Below are positions 3,216 to 42,261 of a stretch of DNA of 64,000 nucleotides, one piece after another. The translations under genes were made by a program, and so were the position numbers. This stretch comes from Sideroxydans sp. GTDB taxonomy: Bacteria > Pseudomonadota > Gammaproteobacteria > Burkholderiales > Gallionellaceae. The DNA is taken from NCBI GenBank assembly GCA_027310725.1, contig DAIDAG010000059.1, positions 62,001 to 126,000 of the forward strand, read 5' to 3'. Numbering within the stretch: the first letter of the stretch is position 1; each line of letters starts with the position of its first letter. The notes below the pieces were generated by a model, which had not been told where the DNA came from, made no database searches, and saw only the letters and a program-made list of their open reading frames with translations.

Positions 3216-4376
3216 ATGCCTTTCACCGAATTACAAAACGAACTGGACGAACGCGCGGCACTCGGCCTTCTGCGCAGCCGCCGCACGCTGTCGAGCCCGC
3301 AGTCCCCGCACATCATCGTGGACGGCAAACCCTATCTCGCCTTCAGCAGCAACGATTACCTCGGCCTCGCCAATCATCCGCAACTCATCGCGGCGCTGCA
3401 ACAGGGTGCGCAGCAATGGGGCGTCGGTGCGGGGGCGGCGCATCTGGTGAACGGACACTTCGAGCCCCATCACCGGATTGAGCAGCAACTAGCCGCTTTT
3501 GTCGGCAAGCCTGCAGCACTGCTGTTTTCCACCGGCTATATGGCGAACCTTGGCGCAGTGCAGGCGCTGGTCGGCAAGGGGGATACGGTGTTCGCCGACA
3601 AGCTTAATCACGCCTCGCTCAACGATGCGATGCTGCTCTCGCGTGCCGGAGTGAAACGCTACCGGCATGGCGATATGGCGCAACTGGAAAAGATGCTCGC
3701 ACAGACACACAGCGGGCGCAGACTTGTCATCACCGATGCCGTGTTCAGCATGGATGGCGATATCGCCCCGTTGCGCGAATTGCTCGCCTTGTGCGAGCAA
3801 TATGATGCCTGGCTGTACGCGGACGATGCGCACGGCTTCGGTGTTGTCGGCGAGAGGGGGCGCGGTTCAATGGCGCATTTCGGCATCGCGTCCGAACGTA
3901 TCATCTACATGGCGACGCTGGGCAAGGCGGCTGGCGTATCAGGCGCGTTCATCGCGGCAGAGCAGGTCGTCGTCGACACGCTCATCAACCATGCACACAG
4001 TTACGTCTACACCACGGCCACGCCGCCTGCCTTGTCTGTTGCGCTGTCGCAGAGCCTGCAGCTGATCGCCCAGGGTGATGGATTGCGTGCGCATCTGCAG
4101 AGATTCGTCGCGCAATTGCGCAACGGCCTGTCCGATCTGCCATGGCAACTGATGCCTTCGGATACCGCGATACAACCGCTCCTGGTCGGCGACAACCGGC
4201 AGGCACTGAAGCTGAGCGAGAGTCTGCGCGCGCGCGGAATCTGGGTTGCGGCGATCCGCCCACCTACCGTGCCACAGGGCACCGCAAGGTTGCGTATCAC
4301 GCTATCGGCAGCGCACAGCGCGGCAGATGTGGATCGACTCATCGGGGCATTGCATGAGCTTGCGCAGGAATCGTAA
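3216..4376 (+). CDS. bioF: 8-amino-7-oxononanoate synthase
   Basis: MPFTELQNELDERAALGLLRSRR; PLP aminotransferase class II motifs (YADDAHGFGVVGERGRG); position in bio operon. ORF start at 3189 possible. Confidence 0.95.
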   Translation: MPFTELQNELDERAALGLLRSRRTLSSPQSPHIIVDGKPYLAFSSNDYLGLANHPQLIAALQQGAQQWGVGAGAAHLVNGHFEPHHRIEQQLAAFVGKPAALLFSTGYMANLGAVQALVGKGDTVFADKLNHASLNDAMLLSRAGVKRYRHGDMAQLEKMLAQTHSGRRLVITDAVFSMDGDIAPLRELLALCEQYDAWLYADDAHGFGVVGERGRGSMAHFGIASERIIYMATLGKAAGVSGAFIAAEQVVVDTLINHAHSYVYTTATPPALSVALSQSLQLIAQGDGLRAHLQRFVAQLRNGLSDLPWQLMPSDTAIQPLLVGDNRQALKLSESLRARGIWVAAIRPPTVPQGTARLRITLSAAHSAADVDRLIGALHELAQES

Positions 4377-4398
4377 ATTCGCGCAGCGATGCGTTTGC

Positions 4399-4437
4399 AC
4401 CCTCTCCCTCCGGGGGAGGGTTGGGGTGGGGGAAACG
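4399..4437. repeat. palindromic C/G-rich repeat (ccctctccctccgggggagggttggggtggggg)
   Basis: Inverted copy of the element at 4666-4704 inside bioH. Confidence 0.75.
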
Positions 4438-5305: not shown

Positions 5306-6167
5306 ATTCGAGATAGACAAACGGCAGGTCAGGCGAGCCTTCAACCGCGCCGCGCAGCAGTACGACGCGGCCGCAATCTTGCAACGCGAAGTGTGCACGC
5401 GCATGCTGGAGCGGCTGGACTACGTCAAGCTGCAGCCCGCGCGCTTGCTGGATGTCGGTAGCGGCACGGGCTGGGGCACGCGCCAATTGGGCGAGCGCTA
5501 CCCGCAAGCCGAGATCACCGCGCTCGATATCGCGATTGGCATGCTGCAGCTGGCGCGCGGAACGTCGGGCTGGTGGAGCAAGCTGTTTTCATCCAGGCGC
5601 CAGAATTACCTGTGTGCCGATGTCGAGGCTCTGCCTGTCGCCTCCGGCAGCATCGGAATGGTGTGGTCGAATCTCGCGCTGCAATGGTGCAACGATCTGC
5701 CCGCGACCTTCGTCGAGTTGAACCGTGTGCTCAAAGTGGACGGCTTGCTGATGTTTTCCAGTTTCGGCGTGGATACCTTGCGGGAGTTGCGAACCGCCTT
5801 TCACGACGTGGATGGCTATAACCATCTCAGCCGTTTCGCCGACATGCACGACATCGGCGATATGCTGGTGGCAGCGGGCTTTACCGATCCGGTGATGGAG
5901 ATGGAACGGATCACGCTGACGTACAACGATGTGCGGGCCGTGATGCAGGACCTGAAAAGCATCGGTGCGCACAATGCGACCGCCGGTCGCGCGCCCGGCA
6001 TGATGGGCAAGGCGGCATGGCAGCGCGTCACCGAGAATTACGAGAAGCTGCGCCGCGACGGCAAACTGCCGGCCACCTTCGAGATCATCTACGGCCATGC
6101 GTGGAAACCTGCTCCGAAGGCGACAGCGGACGGGCGTGCCATCATCAGGACCGATTTCAAGCTATGA
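5298..6167 (+). CDS. bioC: malonyl-ACP O-methyltransferase
   Basis: SAM motif LLDVGSGTGWGTRQL; overlaps end of bioH. Confidence 0.95.
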   Translation: MNEFEIDKRQVRRAFNRAAQQYDAAAILQREVCTRMLERLDYVKLQPARLLDVGSGTGWGTRQLGERYPQAEITALDIAIGMLQLARGTSGWWSKLFSSRRQNYLCADVEALPVASGSIGMVWSNLALQWCNDLPATFVELNRVLKVDGLLMFSSFGVDTLRELRTAFHDVDGYNHLSRFADMHDIGDMLVAAGFTDPVMEMERITLTYNDVRAVMQDLKSIGAHNATAGRAPGMMGKAAWQRVTENYEKLRRDGKLPATFEIIYGHAWKPAPKATADGRAIIRTDFKL

Positions 6168-6844
6168 GTTATTTCGTCACCGGAACCGATACCGGCGTGG
6201 GCAAGACGCTAGTGAGTTGCGCGCTGCTGCACGCCTTCGCGGCGCAGGGCAAGCGCGTGGCCGGATTCAAACCGGTCGCGGCGGGTTGCGACGATGACGA
6301 CCACAACGAAGACGCCAAACTGCTGCGTGCCGCAAGCACGGTGCAGGCGGCCTACGGCCAGATCAATCCCTATTGCTTCCATCGTCCTATCGCCCCGCAT
6401 CTGGCCGCACGGCATGCCGGGGTGAACATAGAGTTCGGACGCATCATGGCCTCGTACCGGGAACTGGCCGGGCAGGCCGACGAGGTCATCGTCGAAGGGG
6501 CGGGGGGATTCTGCGTGCCGCTGAACGACAGGCAAACCAGCGCGGATCTCGCCAGACAACTCGAGCTGCCGGTCATACTGGTGGTGGGCATGCGGCTGGG
6601 GTGCATAAACCATGCCTTGCTGACGATGCACGCTATCGCCCATTACCAACTAGAATGTGCGGGTTGGGTAGCCAATGTGCTGGATGCGGGCATGCCCGCT
6701 TTGCAAGAGAACATCCAGGCATTGCGCGAGCGCATCGCGGCGCCGCTGTTGGGCGTCATCCCCTGTCAGCCGCAACCGGATGCCAGAGCGGCGGCTGCGC
6801 ATTTGAACTTGGAGATGCTGGAGAAAAAAGAAGTCGATGGTTGA
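6164..6844 (+). CDS. bioD: dethiobiotin synthase
   Basis: MSYFVTGTDTGVGKTLVSCALL P-loop; EGAGGFCVPL; overlaps bioC stop. Confidence 0.95.
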   Translation: MSYFVTGTDTGVGKTLVSCALLHAFAAQGKRVAGFKPVAAGCDDDDHNEDAKLLRAASTVQAAYGQINPYCFHRPIAPHLAARHAGVNIEFGRIMASYRELAGQADEVIVEGAGGFCVPLNDRQTSADLARQLELPVILVVGMRLGCINHALLTMHAIAHYQLECAGWVANVLDAGMPALQENIQALRERIAAPLLGVIPCQPQPDARAAAAHLNLEMLEKKEVDG

Positions 6845-38296: not shown

Positions 38297-38714
38297 CGCT
38301 TCAATCTGCCGCCATAGTGTTTGCCCGGAACCGGAAAACGGGCACACGGCGTTGGCGGTGTGCATTCCGAACTATTCGACAGACAGTGTTCAAATTCGAT
38401 TTCCGAGTTTGACAGAAGATCGTTGTGGATGGCTTTGTGGCGGAAAAAGAATATGAGTGGGCCGCCGTTGTTGGATAGAAGTCGTTGGGTGAACGTTTGG
38501 CTTTTGATGTCTCAAAGTCGGCCATTACGGAAGTTCAGGATATGAGGTGCGCTACTTCTGCTATTGCCCAGTAGGAGACATTCGCCCTTGCCCGTACTAT
38601 TATGCATATGCGGACAGAAGAAATGGTAGGGACTCAAATGATTCAATTGCTTATAAGAAATGTGTGCGCCTCACTATTGTTAATAATACGGACCGGTGGG
38701 TCTGCCCAATAACT

Positions 38715-38721
38715 GTTAGCT
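38715..38721 (+). other. possible recombination core site (GTTAGCT) at left boundary of cassette array
   Basis: GTTRRRY-type core 22 bp upstream of the first cassette ORF; the rest of an attC/attI is not recognisable. Confidence 0.35.
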
Positions 38722-38742
38722 ATTTGGGTCGACTATTTCTAT

Positions 38743-39195
38743 ATGAGCAATAAAGTTACAGGTGATTGGGGCGAGAAATTTATTGCAAAAACGTTTGCGT
38801 GCCCGAAGTGTAAGAATTACAACTCGCTGAAACGACTTCCAAATAATTTTAAATGTGTAGATATCGTTTGTGATTTTTGTGGCTACCTGGCGCAGGTTAA
38901 AACCGTATCTGTTACTGATGTTAATAAATTTCCCAAAAGTATATTGGGCGCTGCGTGGAAGCCGCAGAAGGACAGAATGAGGGCAGGGATATACTTTCCT
39001 TTGTATATTGTTCTAAAAAGTGGTTCACAATGCTCGGTATTCTACTTGCCAACAGAATTTCAATTGCCAAAGATGTTCAAAAAACGTAATCCTCTTTCCG
39101 ATACAGCTAAGCGTGCAGGCTGGCAAGGCTTCGTGTATGACTTTTCAGATTTTCCAGACGGTATTCCTGTTCGCGTCTGGCCAATTGATAGCTAA
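38743..39195 (+). CDS. DpnI-like PD-(D/E)XK nuclease domain protein (cassette gene 1)
   Basis: Zn-finger CPKC...CDFC, D-x10-QVK, and RNPLSDTAKRAGWQGFVYDFSDFP, which resembles DpnI RKPLAPTARRAGWIGCNIDLSQVP as recalled. Confidence 0.75.
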   Translation: MSNKVTGDWGEKFIAKTFACPKCKNYNSLKRLPNNFKCVDIVCDFCGYLAQVKTVSVTDVNKFPKSILGAAWKPQKDRMRAGIYFPLYIVLKSGSQCSVFYLPTEFQLPKMFKKRNPLSDTAKRAGWQGFVYDFSDFPDGIPVRVWPIDS

Positions 39196-39249
39196 CAAGT
39201 CGTTCAAGCCGACCGTGTTACGCGCGGCGGCTTAACTCCAGCGTTAGGG
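39190..39249 (+). other. integron attC site 1
   Basis: AGCTAACAAGTCGTTCAAGCCGACCGTGTTACGCGCGGCGGCTTAACTCCAGCGTTAGGG: 60-bp imperfect palindrome with RYYYAAC/GTTRRRY cores. Confidence 0.9.
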
Positions 39250-39254
39250 TTCTT

Positions 39255-39803
39255 ATGCGTACCTACACCATTGCTCCGGCTTCACCAACATCATTCAAAG
39301 CGGCAGCTTCGGTGTTCGTTGGCGCATTTGGGACAATCTGGTTATTCATCGAACCGCTTGGCCTGTTCGGACTAGTCCCCACCGTAGGCAGCATCATGGG
39401 CATAGTCTTGTACCTGTTGATGTTGTGTGCTGCATTGCTCGTGGTAGTTGTCTTTCTTCGCAGTTACCGTTGGTACAAAATTCACAATTTACCTTTCGTT
39501 GCCCTCAATGTTGCCTCAGCATCAGACGGAGCAACCTACTCACGTCGTGTTGCCGCGAACATGCAGATTCGTGACTTTTTATACGATTTCCTAAACTTGC
39601 TTTCTCGTGGGCCGGGTAGAGAAAAGCTGCAACTATTCCGTCGCCACTACCTTCCAGTTCTTCAGGTTCGCCGTGGTGATGCATTCATTGATGTCGATAG
39701 CAATCTAACCGCTAGCAATGCTGGGCTTAAGGATCAAGACTTCTGTCAGGTACGTGGTGAGCCGCATAAGGTTGATGATAGGATTTTGTTTTCAAGAGGG
39801 TAG
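39255..39803 (+). CDS. cassette gene 2: hypothetical protein with N-terminal TM segments
   Basis: ORF fills the interval between attC1 and attC2; two hydrophobic segments then a soluble domain. Confidence 0.7.
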   Translation: MRTYTIAPASPTSFKAAASVFVGAFGTIWLFIEPLGLFGLVPTVGSIMGIVLYLLMLCAALLVVVVFLRSYRWYKIHNLPFVALNVASASDGATYSRRVAANMQIRDFLYDFLNLLSRGPGREKLQLFRRHYLPVLQVRRGDAFIDVDSNLTASNAGLKDQDFCQVRGEPHKVDDRILFSRG

Positions 39804-39813
39804 CTATGTCCCA

Positions 39814-39876
39814 GACAAACCCTACAGTCAAGCGGGACTGCGCAGAAGCGCGCAGCCCCTTAGCTCCACGTTAGCC
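39814..39876 (+). other. integron attC site 2
   Basis: GACAAACCCTACAGTCAAGCGGGACTGCGCAGAAGCGCGCAGCCCCTTAGCTCCACGTTAGCC; attC-like spacing, central hairpin and GTTAGCC core. Confidence 0.7.
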
Positions 39877-39894
39877 ATCATCAGTCCGCACACT

Positions 39895-40683
39895 ATGACA
39901 CCGGATGACATCCGCTTCGCATCGGTCAAGGAGGACCGCGGGTGGTACTTCGTGGAGTACTTTCCTCCACACCCTGACTTTCGATTCTCGGTGCTCCAGC
40001 TTTCCGTTGTTGAGTCGCATGACGCCAACGCTGTAGCGAACGCGATGGAATACGAGGCAAGAGACTGGCTCCGGCGTTACCCGGTTCCGGTCATGGTGAC
40101 TGCCTTTTCTCTTGAGGGCGATGTCTTTCCCTTGCAGTCCGCTCGCCCGACTGACCACCTAATCGCTTTCTCCGACCCCACCCAATCAAAGGAAGTTCTT
40201 CGCTGGGAACTTGTCGCAGATGCGGAGTTGCCAGCAGTGGCCCTTGATCGCACGTTTCTGAAGAGGATCTTCGCAAACGTCCCTTCTAAGACAGGCCGAG
40301 AGATCCAGGCCGAGGCACAGAAACACATCACCACCCTAAAGGTCGGCTGGTGGATCGTCTTTCTCTGGGCCGTCGTCGTCCCCCTCGGAGTAGCCGTGCT
40401 GGAGTGGTGGAGTGATCTTCTGGGGCTGGTGGTTCTTGCGTATGCGTTCTTCAAGGCCGCGGTCGAAGCTCTACGTCTTACCGGACACCTCCCAAAATCA
40501 GAGCGAGAGCGGCAGAAGGAGGCTGAAGACTTGAAAATGCGCCACTACTACTATCACTGCGAGCGCAATCCGGAATCCTTTGAACGCCTAAAGGCTGACA
40601 ACTTCCGCCGCGAAGAAATTGAACGAACCAAGTCACAGGCTGCGGCACTCAAGACACAGCAGCATCCGTCTACTGATGGCTAA
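39895..40683 (+). CDS. cassette gene 3: hypothetical protein with central TM pair
   Basis: ORF between attC2 and putative attC3; hydrophobic WWIVFLWAVVVPLGVAVLEWWSDLLGLVVLAYAFF, charged C-terminus. Confidence 0.7.
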   Translation: MTPDDIRFASVKEDRGWYFVEYFPPHPDFRFSVLQLSVVESHDANAVANAMEYEARDWLRRYPVPVMVTAFSLEGDVFPLQSARPTDHLIAFSDPTQSKEVLRWELVADAELPAVALDRTFLKRIFANVPSKTGREIQAEAQKHITTLKVGWWIVFLWAVVVPLGVAVLEWWSDLLGLVVLAYAFFKAAVEALRLTGHLPKSERERQKEAEDLKMRHYYYHCERNPESFERLKADNFRREEIERTKSQAAALKTQQHPSTDG

Positions 40684-40773
40684 CCTCTCGATTAACCGAA
40701 CGCCCGGCAAGCTGCGCTTGCCGGTACCGTCCACCCTGAGGGCTCCGGTCGCCGGTTACCTTGGGCGTTGAAG
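40678..40773 (+). other. putative long attC site 3
   Basis: GGCTAAC...GGCAAGCTGCGCTTGCC...GCCGGTTACCTTGGGCGTTGAAG; right core is non-canonical. Confidence 0.45.
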
Positions 40774-40786
40774 GTCTGGTTTTGAG

Positions 40787-42017
40787 TTGCGATTTCAACC
40801 GGTCGATGCAACACATTGGTTAAACCGTTCTGCTGGTGTTTCGAAGTTTAACGTCTTTCGTGGACGTTCATTTAACTGACGAGCAACTGCATTGAGTTTC
40901 GATTGAGAGTGTACCGACAAGTCTGTTCCTTTGGGGAAGTACTGTCTCAATAAGCCGTTGGTATTCTCATTCGTTCCACGTTGCCAAGGATTCTGCGGAT
41001 CACAGAAATAGACTTTGATGTCGGTTGCCAGCGTGAATCGCTTGTGGTCGGACAGTTCCGTGCCACGATCCCAGGTCAGCGATTTGTAGAGTTCCTGCGG
41101 TAACTTATGAGCATGCTTAATCAGTGCGTTGATGACGATCTCGGTATCTTTGCTGGGAATCCTCACCAACATCACATAACGCGTCTGGCGTTCAACGAGG
41201 GTCGCAATCTGACTGCTACCACTGCCGCATAACAGATCTCCTTCCCAGTGTCCCGGTACCGCGCGATCTTCAACCGAGGCAGGACGCTCACTGATCGATA
41301 CGGCGTCGATAATCCTGCCGTGATCTTCTGTCTTCTGAGTATGATGACGTGAACGACGCATGACGCGAGTCCGCCGCAAGTGCGCCAGAAGCTCCTTCTT
41401 CAATGCGCCTCTGGCCTGGATATAGAGGCTGCGGTAGATGGTCTCGTGTGACACTTGGTAACTTTCGTCGCTTGGGTATGTCTGCTTCAGCCATCCGGCA
41501 ATCTGTTCCGGTGACCACAGCCCTTGGAGCTTAGCGGCCACGATGTGCGCCAACGCTCGATTCTCAACCAGTTTACAGGTCTTGGGGCGAAGTGTCCGAT
41601 CCCAAGCAGCCTGGTCAGCTTTACTGGCCCGATAGCATTCCTGACCACCGTTGCGCTTGATCTCGCGACTGATGGTGGATGGAGCACGCCCGAGGAAAGT
41701 TGCAATCGCGCGAGCCGACTGGCCAGCTACCACCGCACGCGATATTTCCTCTCGCTCAGGAAGCGTCAGCGCCAGTCTGGAACGGCGTCGTTGTGCCGGC
41801 CGTATTCCTCCAGTCTTGGCTAGAATCCCTTCGACCGATGAATGGTTTCGATCGAACAGTTGGGCAATGTGCTGGAGAGAGTCACCTTTCTGCCAGCGCT
41901 CCCACATTAACGCTATTTGACTTTCAGTATAATAAATCCGGGTTCTTCGTTTCATCTGCAACACTCCTTCTGCTTACGCAGATTCTAGTGTGTTGCATCG
42001 ACCGGTTGAAATCGCAA
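40787..42017 (-). mobile_element. IS30-family insertion sequence
   Basis: 29-bp perfect terminal inverted repeats TTGCGATTTCAACCGGTCGATGCAACACA at 40787-40815 and 41989-42017. Confidence 0.92.
40795..41955 (-). CDS. IS30-family transposase
   Basis: HTH (LTLPEREEISRAVVAGQSARAIATFLGRAPSTISREIKRNGG), DDE region GHWEGDLL, LTWDRGTEL, NPWQRGTNENTNGLLRQYFPKG. Confidence 0.95.
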   Translation of the reverse strand: MKRRTRIYYTESQIALMWERWQKGDSLQHIAQLFDRNHSSVEGILAKTGGIRPAQRRRSRLALTLPEREEISRAVVAGQSARAIATFLGRAPSTISREIKRNGGQECYRASKADQAAWDRTLRPKTCKLVENRALAHIVAAKLQGLWSPEQIAGWLKQTYPSDESYQVSHETIYRSLYIQARGALKKELLAHLRRTRVMRRSRHHTQKTEDHGRIIDAVSISERPASVEDRAVPGHWEGDLLCGSGSSQIATLVERQTRYVMLVRIPSKDTEIVINALIKHAHKLPQELYKSLTWDRGTELSDHKRFTLATDIKVYFCDPQNPWQRGTNENTNGLLRQYFPKGTDLSVHSQSKLNAVARQLNERPRKTLNFETPAERFNQCVASTG

Positions 42018-42261
42018 GTGCAAACTGGACGTAATTCAAATTCACGTGAATCGTCCGCTTTGGCCGAGAACCCGTCAGCCACGCTTGGCGCACCTGACTT
42101 TCGATAAATAGCCATTCTTTGAAAAATTTGGCGCACTCCTTGATTTCCATGTGCACGAATAAACCGATCTGAAAATCAGCCCGGATTGTCGCTTTCAGAT
42201 GTTTGCCAGTCTGGCATCGCCATTGCTGATCAATCTCGCAGTTCGGACAGGACGAGTTCAT
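42018..42261 (-). pseudogene. short ORF whose 3' end runs into the IS30 element (probably truncated)
   Basis: MNSSCPNCEIDQQWRCQTGKHLKATIRADFQIGLFVH... reads into the right IR. Confidence 0.4.

Follow-up and report, generated by a model that had tools for sequence, protein, structure and literature searches.

A single-domain DpnI-family nuclease in a Sideroxydans integron cassette belongs to a widespread branch with conserved counterparts of DpnI methyl-reading residues

An integron cassette harbors a DpnI-family gene

The window, i.e., the whole 64,000-nt stretch of Sideroxydans sp. DNA analyzed here, contains an array of short open reading frames (ORFs) and attC sites that ends at a transposase gene. 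The features of this array are as follows.

38716–39243, forward strand: probable extent of the nuclease cassette, bounded by a GTTAGCT-like junction (38715–38721) and the attC core site, with the 5′ end placed by eye
38743–39195, forward strand: ORF encoding the monodomain DpnI-family nuclease (150 codons plus stop; Pfam PF06044, DpnI fold match)
39190–39249, forward strand: attC of the nuclease cassette, 60 bp, aadA type, scoring above 200 shuffles
39255–39803, forward strand: 182-aa ORF in the following cassette, unmatched in Pfam, NCBIfam and PADLOC
39813–39876, forward strand: probable second attC, ending in GTTAGCC; assigned by eye and unscored in the automatic scan
39895–40683, forward strand: 262-aa ORF in the third cassette, read from the ATG at 39895; also unmatched in Pfam, NCBIfam and PADLOC
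40690–40773, forward strand: probable third attC, with a score equal to that of the best shuffle
40795–41964, reverse strand: IS30-family transposase closing the array (NCBIfam NF033563, 297 bits)

The 150-aa ORF is present where the earlier note had placed it, and its assignment to an integron cassette is borne out by the attC site, which encloses the TAA stop codon and is 89% identical to aadA2 attC sites found on thousands of plasmids. Like other cassettes with aadA-type attC sites, this one consists of a short ORF ending in attC and is oriented in the same direction as its neighbors. Upstream of the nuclease gene the attC scan revealed no site above control, and no RNA family was found in the array. 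Unlike in the usual integron, no IntI gene above cut-off (TIGR02249) was detected in the genome assembly, which is 65% complete; the array may therefore represent a cluster of attC sites that lacks an integrase.

In a close relative, the sequence agrees with the window up to position 38314 and again from 42114, and in another relative up to 38397. Since these matches break off at the array, it lies in a variable site, about 3.7 kb long, next to hydrogenase genes. The variable site (38315–42114) extends from the hydrogenase genes to an M18-type aminopeptidase; at this position, the sequence in related genomes differs in both content and length.

A homologue in Corticibacter populi (L024:5992–6438) constitutes a second independent cassette case, with aadA-type attC sites at 4361–4416, 5929–5988 and 6442–6500 and thus on both sides of the gene. 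Here, an IntI gene above cut-off lies on a contig of identical length, and so probably on the same contig, about 107 kb from the cassette.

Sequence and predicted structure place the protein in the DpnI family

The 150-aa product is a member of PF06044 (the DpnI/Dam-replacing family) by both sequence and fold. Pfam reports this family at an E-value of 1.3e-18 (67.8 bits, cut-off 26.7), and a phmmer search against the PDB returned DpnI (4esj) as the sole significant relative (1.9e-9), with residues 12–139 aligned to the DpnI catalytic domain. The alignment to DpnI given in the earlier note is thus reproduced by both searches. The PADLOC model for methyl-directed type II systems matches weakly (8.5e-9), and Mrr_cat is absent among the Pfam matches at E-values up to 10. 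An AlphaFold model built on a 45-row alignment (pLDDT 93.2, pTM 0.87) superposes on the DpnI catalytic domain, one of the two comparisons on which the earlier note had staked its proposal. In Foldseek searches of the PDB, the top match was the DpnI structure with DNA in the catalytic domain (4kyw; 7e-10, TMq 0.73, rmsd 2.7 over 136 columns), followed by 4esj, also DpnI, and then by SPARDA effector nucleases and Hjc at E-values of about 0.002–0.02. The kinship with DpnI is solid and far beyond chance. The residues considered below are located in the gene as follows, with counts from an 81-row alignment of homologues.

38773–38775, forward strand: Glu11 in helix 1, aligned with DpnI E25 and invariant also in winged-helix DpnI-type relatives; 79/80
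38800–38880, forward strand: span of the zinc-finger cysteines C20, C23, C43 and C46; each 81/81
38845–38847, forward strand: Asn35, equivalent of DpnI Asn48 (guanine N2 contact; PMC4117772); 80/81, partly biased by the search pattern
38860–38901, forward strand: active-site motif D40-x10-Q51-V-K53; D 81/81, Q 79/81, K 81/81
39085–39129, forward strand: methyl-/guanine-reading loop R115-x2-L118-x5-R124-x2-W127-x-G129, corresponding by alignment to DpnI R126, L129, R135, W138 and G140 (DpnI roles, PMC4117772); R115 80/81, L118 80/80, R124 75/80, W127 77/80, G129 79/80

The spacing of the D-x10-Q-V-K motif, the CPKC/CDFC pair and the RNPLSDTAKRAGWQGF stretch were all found as described before. 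The four cysteines of the proposed zinc finger are likewise present, but they do not lie just before the motif, as had been stated: C43 and C46 fall inside the D-x10-Q stretch. DpnI has the same layout (C34, C37, D53, C56, C59, E64, K66).

The protein shares with R.DpnI (PDB 4kyw, 4esj) the catalytic fold, the Cys4 zinc site, the active-site Asp and Lys and the helix Glu, as well as the methyl cleft (L129/R135/W138/G140), the guanine readers (R126/R135/N48) and the absence of a methyltransferase partner beside the gene. It is not R.DpnI proper, a PD-(D/E)XK-wH enzyme of type IIE/IIM. As previously noted, it ends after the nuclease domain, before the C-terminal winged-helix effector domain of R.DpnI would begin, and the Glu of the D..ExK motif is missing: DpnI E64 is replaced by Q51, while D40 and K53 are present. 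It also differs from R.DpnI in length (∼148 aa in the branch versus 254), in its W-x-P-Q-x2-R-M and RAGWQGF features and in its location in an integron cassette, here and in C. populi.

Monodomain homologues form a separate branch

Homologues were searched with the window protein and two ∼53% relatives as seeds; a first contig scan with a single sequence as query had yielded no matches, and an alignment query did. Matches were obtained at 79 loci of GTDB species genomes and on 3 viral contigs in IMG/VR. A phage origin was rejected, with no match among 50,697 phage records and 3 in IMG/VR. Intact homologues are nearly all about 141–163 aa long (∼148 aa) and share the C-terminal end point of the window protein. 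In the tree, the monodomain proteins form one branch apart from three winged-helix DpnI relatives (support 100/100). A truncated DpnI can be ruled out for the window protein, given this separate branch and the end point common to nearly all intact homologues across many phyla. No description of the monodomain branch was found in the literature searched, which did not include REBASE.

Pseudomonadota, Actinomycetota, Chloroflexota, Planctomycetota and others are intermixed in the tree, a pattern that a transferred defense gene would produce; phylum changes more than once, which suggests horizontal transfer without proving it. The window copy sits among marine sequences on a long branch (0.8 versus a median of 0.27) and has a shorter N-terminus.

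Because the search patterns spanned part of residues 32–47, conservation in this region is inflated; E11, C20, C23, Q51, K53 and residues 115–129 lie outside the patterns. Across 42 monodomain and three winged-helix relatives, E11, C20, C23, D40, C43, C46, K53, R115, L118, G126, W127 and G129 are invariant. Loss of the D/Q/K residues among homologues had been named beforehand as an outcome that would speak against the proposal, and the residues are kept (81, 79 and 81 of 81). Q51 is the native residue of the whole monodomain branch rather than a sign of decay or an oddity of the window copy, because D and K are retained in all 81 rows and Q in 79 of 81 of an otherwise intact family. One winged-helix DpnI relative (L005) likewise carries QLK. 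The first-helix E11, invariant in both the monodomain and the winged-helix types, may help in metal binding.

Decayed relatives exist as well (L006, L081, L083, L084). The relic in L006 (1501–1605), from a genome of the same order, retains the first ∼36 residues. In two Actinomycetota genomes (L085 and L086, 6001–6648), the family's first ∼55 residues run in frame into helicase-like sequence, a fusion that may represent a chimera or a recombination scar.

Six DpnI methyl- and base-reading residues are retained

The DpnI catalytic domain is separately specific for Gm6ATC: L129, R135 and W138 form a cleft for both methyl groups, with G140 supporting W138, while R126 and R135 read the guanines and N48 contacts guanine N2; the mutation W138A nearly abolishes activity (PMC4117772). 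Cutting inside the site has also been ascribed to the catalytic domain's own specificity (PMC11037411). All six residues N48, R126, L129, R135, W138 and G140 are identical in the window protein (N35, R115, L118, R124, W127, G129), with 37 of 123 aligned positions identical overall; on the simplifying and incorrect assumption of independent positions, this has a probability of about 5e-4. The earlier suggestion that the reading specificity is missing or different is therefore contradicted, and a loss of methyl reading was rejected given the conservation of the reader residues. Since these residues are identical here and near-invariant in the branch, we infer that the branch has retained the methyl reader within the catalytic domain and lost the second one.

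The first helix differs. In DpnI, S17 and Q18 contact the minor groove, with Q18 contacting T (PMC4117772). In an ungapped alignment these readers correspond to N3 and K4 of the window copy; at position 4, which corresponds to Q18 by ungapped extension, 72 of 74 branch members carry Q.

Dam methyltransferases are rare among carrier genomes

In agreement with the earlier note, no methyltransferase gene was found beside the window ORF. The window genome (assembly 65% complete) lacks a detectable D12/Dam-class gene and has one N6_N4-type gene on another contig. Only one of 50 carrier genomes has a Dam-family gene above cut-off, compared with 77 of 274 genomes in the class of the window, although most carriers lie outside that class and the comparison is not phylum-matched. 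With this limit, the rarity of Dam among carriers fits a Gm6ATC cutter.

A potential conflict with Gm6ATC cutting is seen in Luteimonas sp. BDR2-5 (L014:2495–5758), where an intact Dam-family methyltransferase, with M.DpnII as closest solved structure, lies 2 kb from the DpnI-like gene. A ParB-like gene and the gene of a protein X are located between them. Protein X adjoins the nuclease gene in L014 and in L002, and both nucleases carry K at R124 (DpnI R135).

Protein X was the only small recurrence of note, and a conserved partner gene was rejected: no other gene cluster occurs in more than four of the neighborhoods examined, and among 131 flanking genes scanned with Pfam and PADLOC only scattered defense genes were detected, with Eco57I-type genes in 3 cases.

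A candidate one-domain methyl-dependent restriction nuclease

Based on its family, fold and conserved residues, the window protein is probably a stand-alone, one-domain restriction nuclease that depends on N6-methyladenine (6mA), probably of the Gm6ATC type, and uses a D..QxK site. A more far-reaching proposal extends this to the whole branch: widespread single-domain adenine-methyl-dependent nucleases of ∼148 aa with a native D..QxK site would read and cut Gm6ATC without a winged helix and would spread among phyla partly as integron cassettes. We consider this broader proposal evenly balanced between right and wrong. Among the observations that speak against the reading as a 6mA-dependent nuclease are the exchange of E64 to Q, the K4, shorter N-terminus and long branch of the window copy, and the Luteimonas sp. 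BDR2-5 methyltransferase 2 kb from a nuclease with K for R124.

In an unlikely alternative, the protein is a modification-dependent nuclease of this branch with another target, either a modification other than 6mA or 6mA with ApT in a different sequence context, with the loop kept as a scaffold and the specificity of the window copy (K4, divergent N-terminus) shifted. Besides the altered minor-groove position 4, R124 is K in three members, and DpnI itself retains partial activity as R135A and as W138F/H/Y (PMC4117772). Moreover, a 147-aa QVK relative (L120; G584:C14:125628–125996, reverse strand) and the divergent monodomain QVK relative L082 have Y and M at the positions of the methyl-reading W and the supporting G, so that readers vary in nature. 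However, the major-groove readers R115, L118, R124, W127, G129 and N35 are all retained in the window copy. In their own right, L120 and L082 are possible natural specificity variants.

We regard it as very unlikely that the gene encodes a decayed or catalytically dead DNA-binding remnant in the cassette array. The exchange of E to Q at the metal site, the window copy's long branch and changed N-terminus and the existence of decayed relatives would fit such a remnant, but the ORF is intact, all zinc and major-groove reader residues as well as D and K are present, and the Q is itself conserved in an otherwise intact family. Even less probable is a non-specific or structure-specific DNA nuclease for repair, recombination or a toxin-like effector function that shares only the fold: Hjc and SPARDA chains come next among the fold matches, the helix Glu, D and QxK resemble the resolvase-type PD-(D/E)XK layout, and there is no partner or methylase to account for safety, but DpnI is far ahead in both fold and sequence, and near-invariant base- and methyl-reading residues are unexpected for such a nuclease.

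If the protein is a 6mA-dependent nuclease, methyl reading and cutting would take place in the same ∼148-aa, zinc-stapled PD-(D/E)XK domain. The loop with R115, L118, R124, W127 and G129 would enter the major groove, where the Trp/Leu/Arg cleft would accommodate both neighboring 6-methyl groups of a fully methylated ApT, and the outer guanines would be read by the arginines together with N35. Metal-dependent cleavage of the strand by D40, Q51 and K53, either inside the site or at it, would follow. Acting alone and with no methyltransferase, in hosts expected to lack Dam, the nuclease would be a type IV/IIM-like restriction factor directed at incoming DNA that carries methylation at Gm6ATC or a closely similar site, and thus probably a one-gene defense enzyme that cuts methylated invading DNA. 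The main mechanistic doubt on one-domain reading comes from DpnI, whose catalytic domain binds DNA poorly when the winged helix is damaged: the winged-helix mutation R231A severely impairs the contact of this domain with DNA (PMC4117772), so that an isolated domain must bind DNA in another way.

Comparison with known systems and implications

The proposed enzyme would resemble the PD-(D/E)XK-wH 6mA-dependent type IV enzymes (FcyTI, Psp4BI and others; PMC11037411) in nuclease family, expected 6mA reading and stand-alone genes; because that survey sought winged-helix fusions, members without the winged helix lie outside it by design. With the Mrr/MspJI-type nucleases, for which Mrr-type motifs are given as (D/E)..(D/E/Q)xK (PMC3874153), it would share the tolerance of Gln in the xK motif and modification-dependent restriction, but unlike them it has neither an Mrr_cat match nor a separate reader domain.

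A natural nuclease-domain-only branch with intact readers and Gln in place of the metal-binding Glu makes one-domain methyl-specific cutting directly testable. DpnI, the textbook example of a 6mA-dependent enzyme, is believed to need two intercommunicating readers. If the proposed function is true, the members of the branch would count among the smallest restriction enzymes that depend on modification, and the branch could yield a very small tool enzyme for 6mA mapping, and it would add a one-gene defense module to the integron cassette repertoire.
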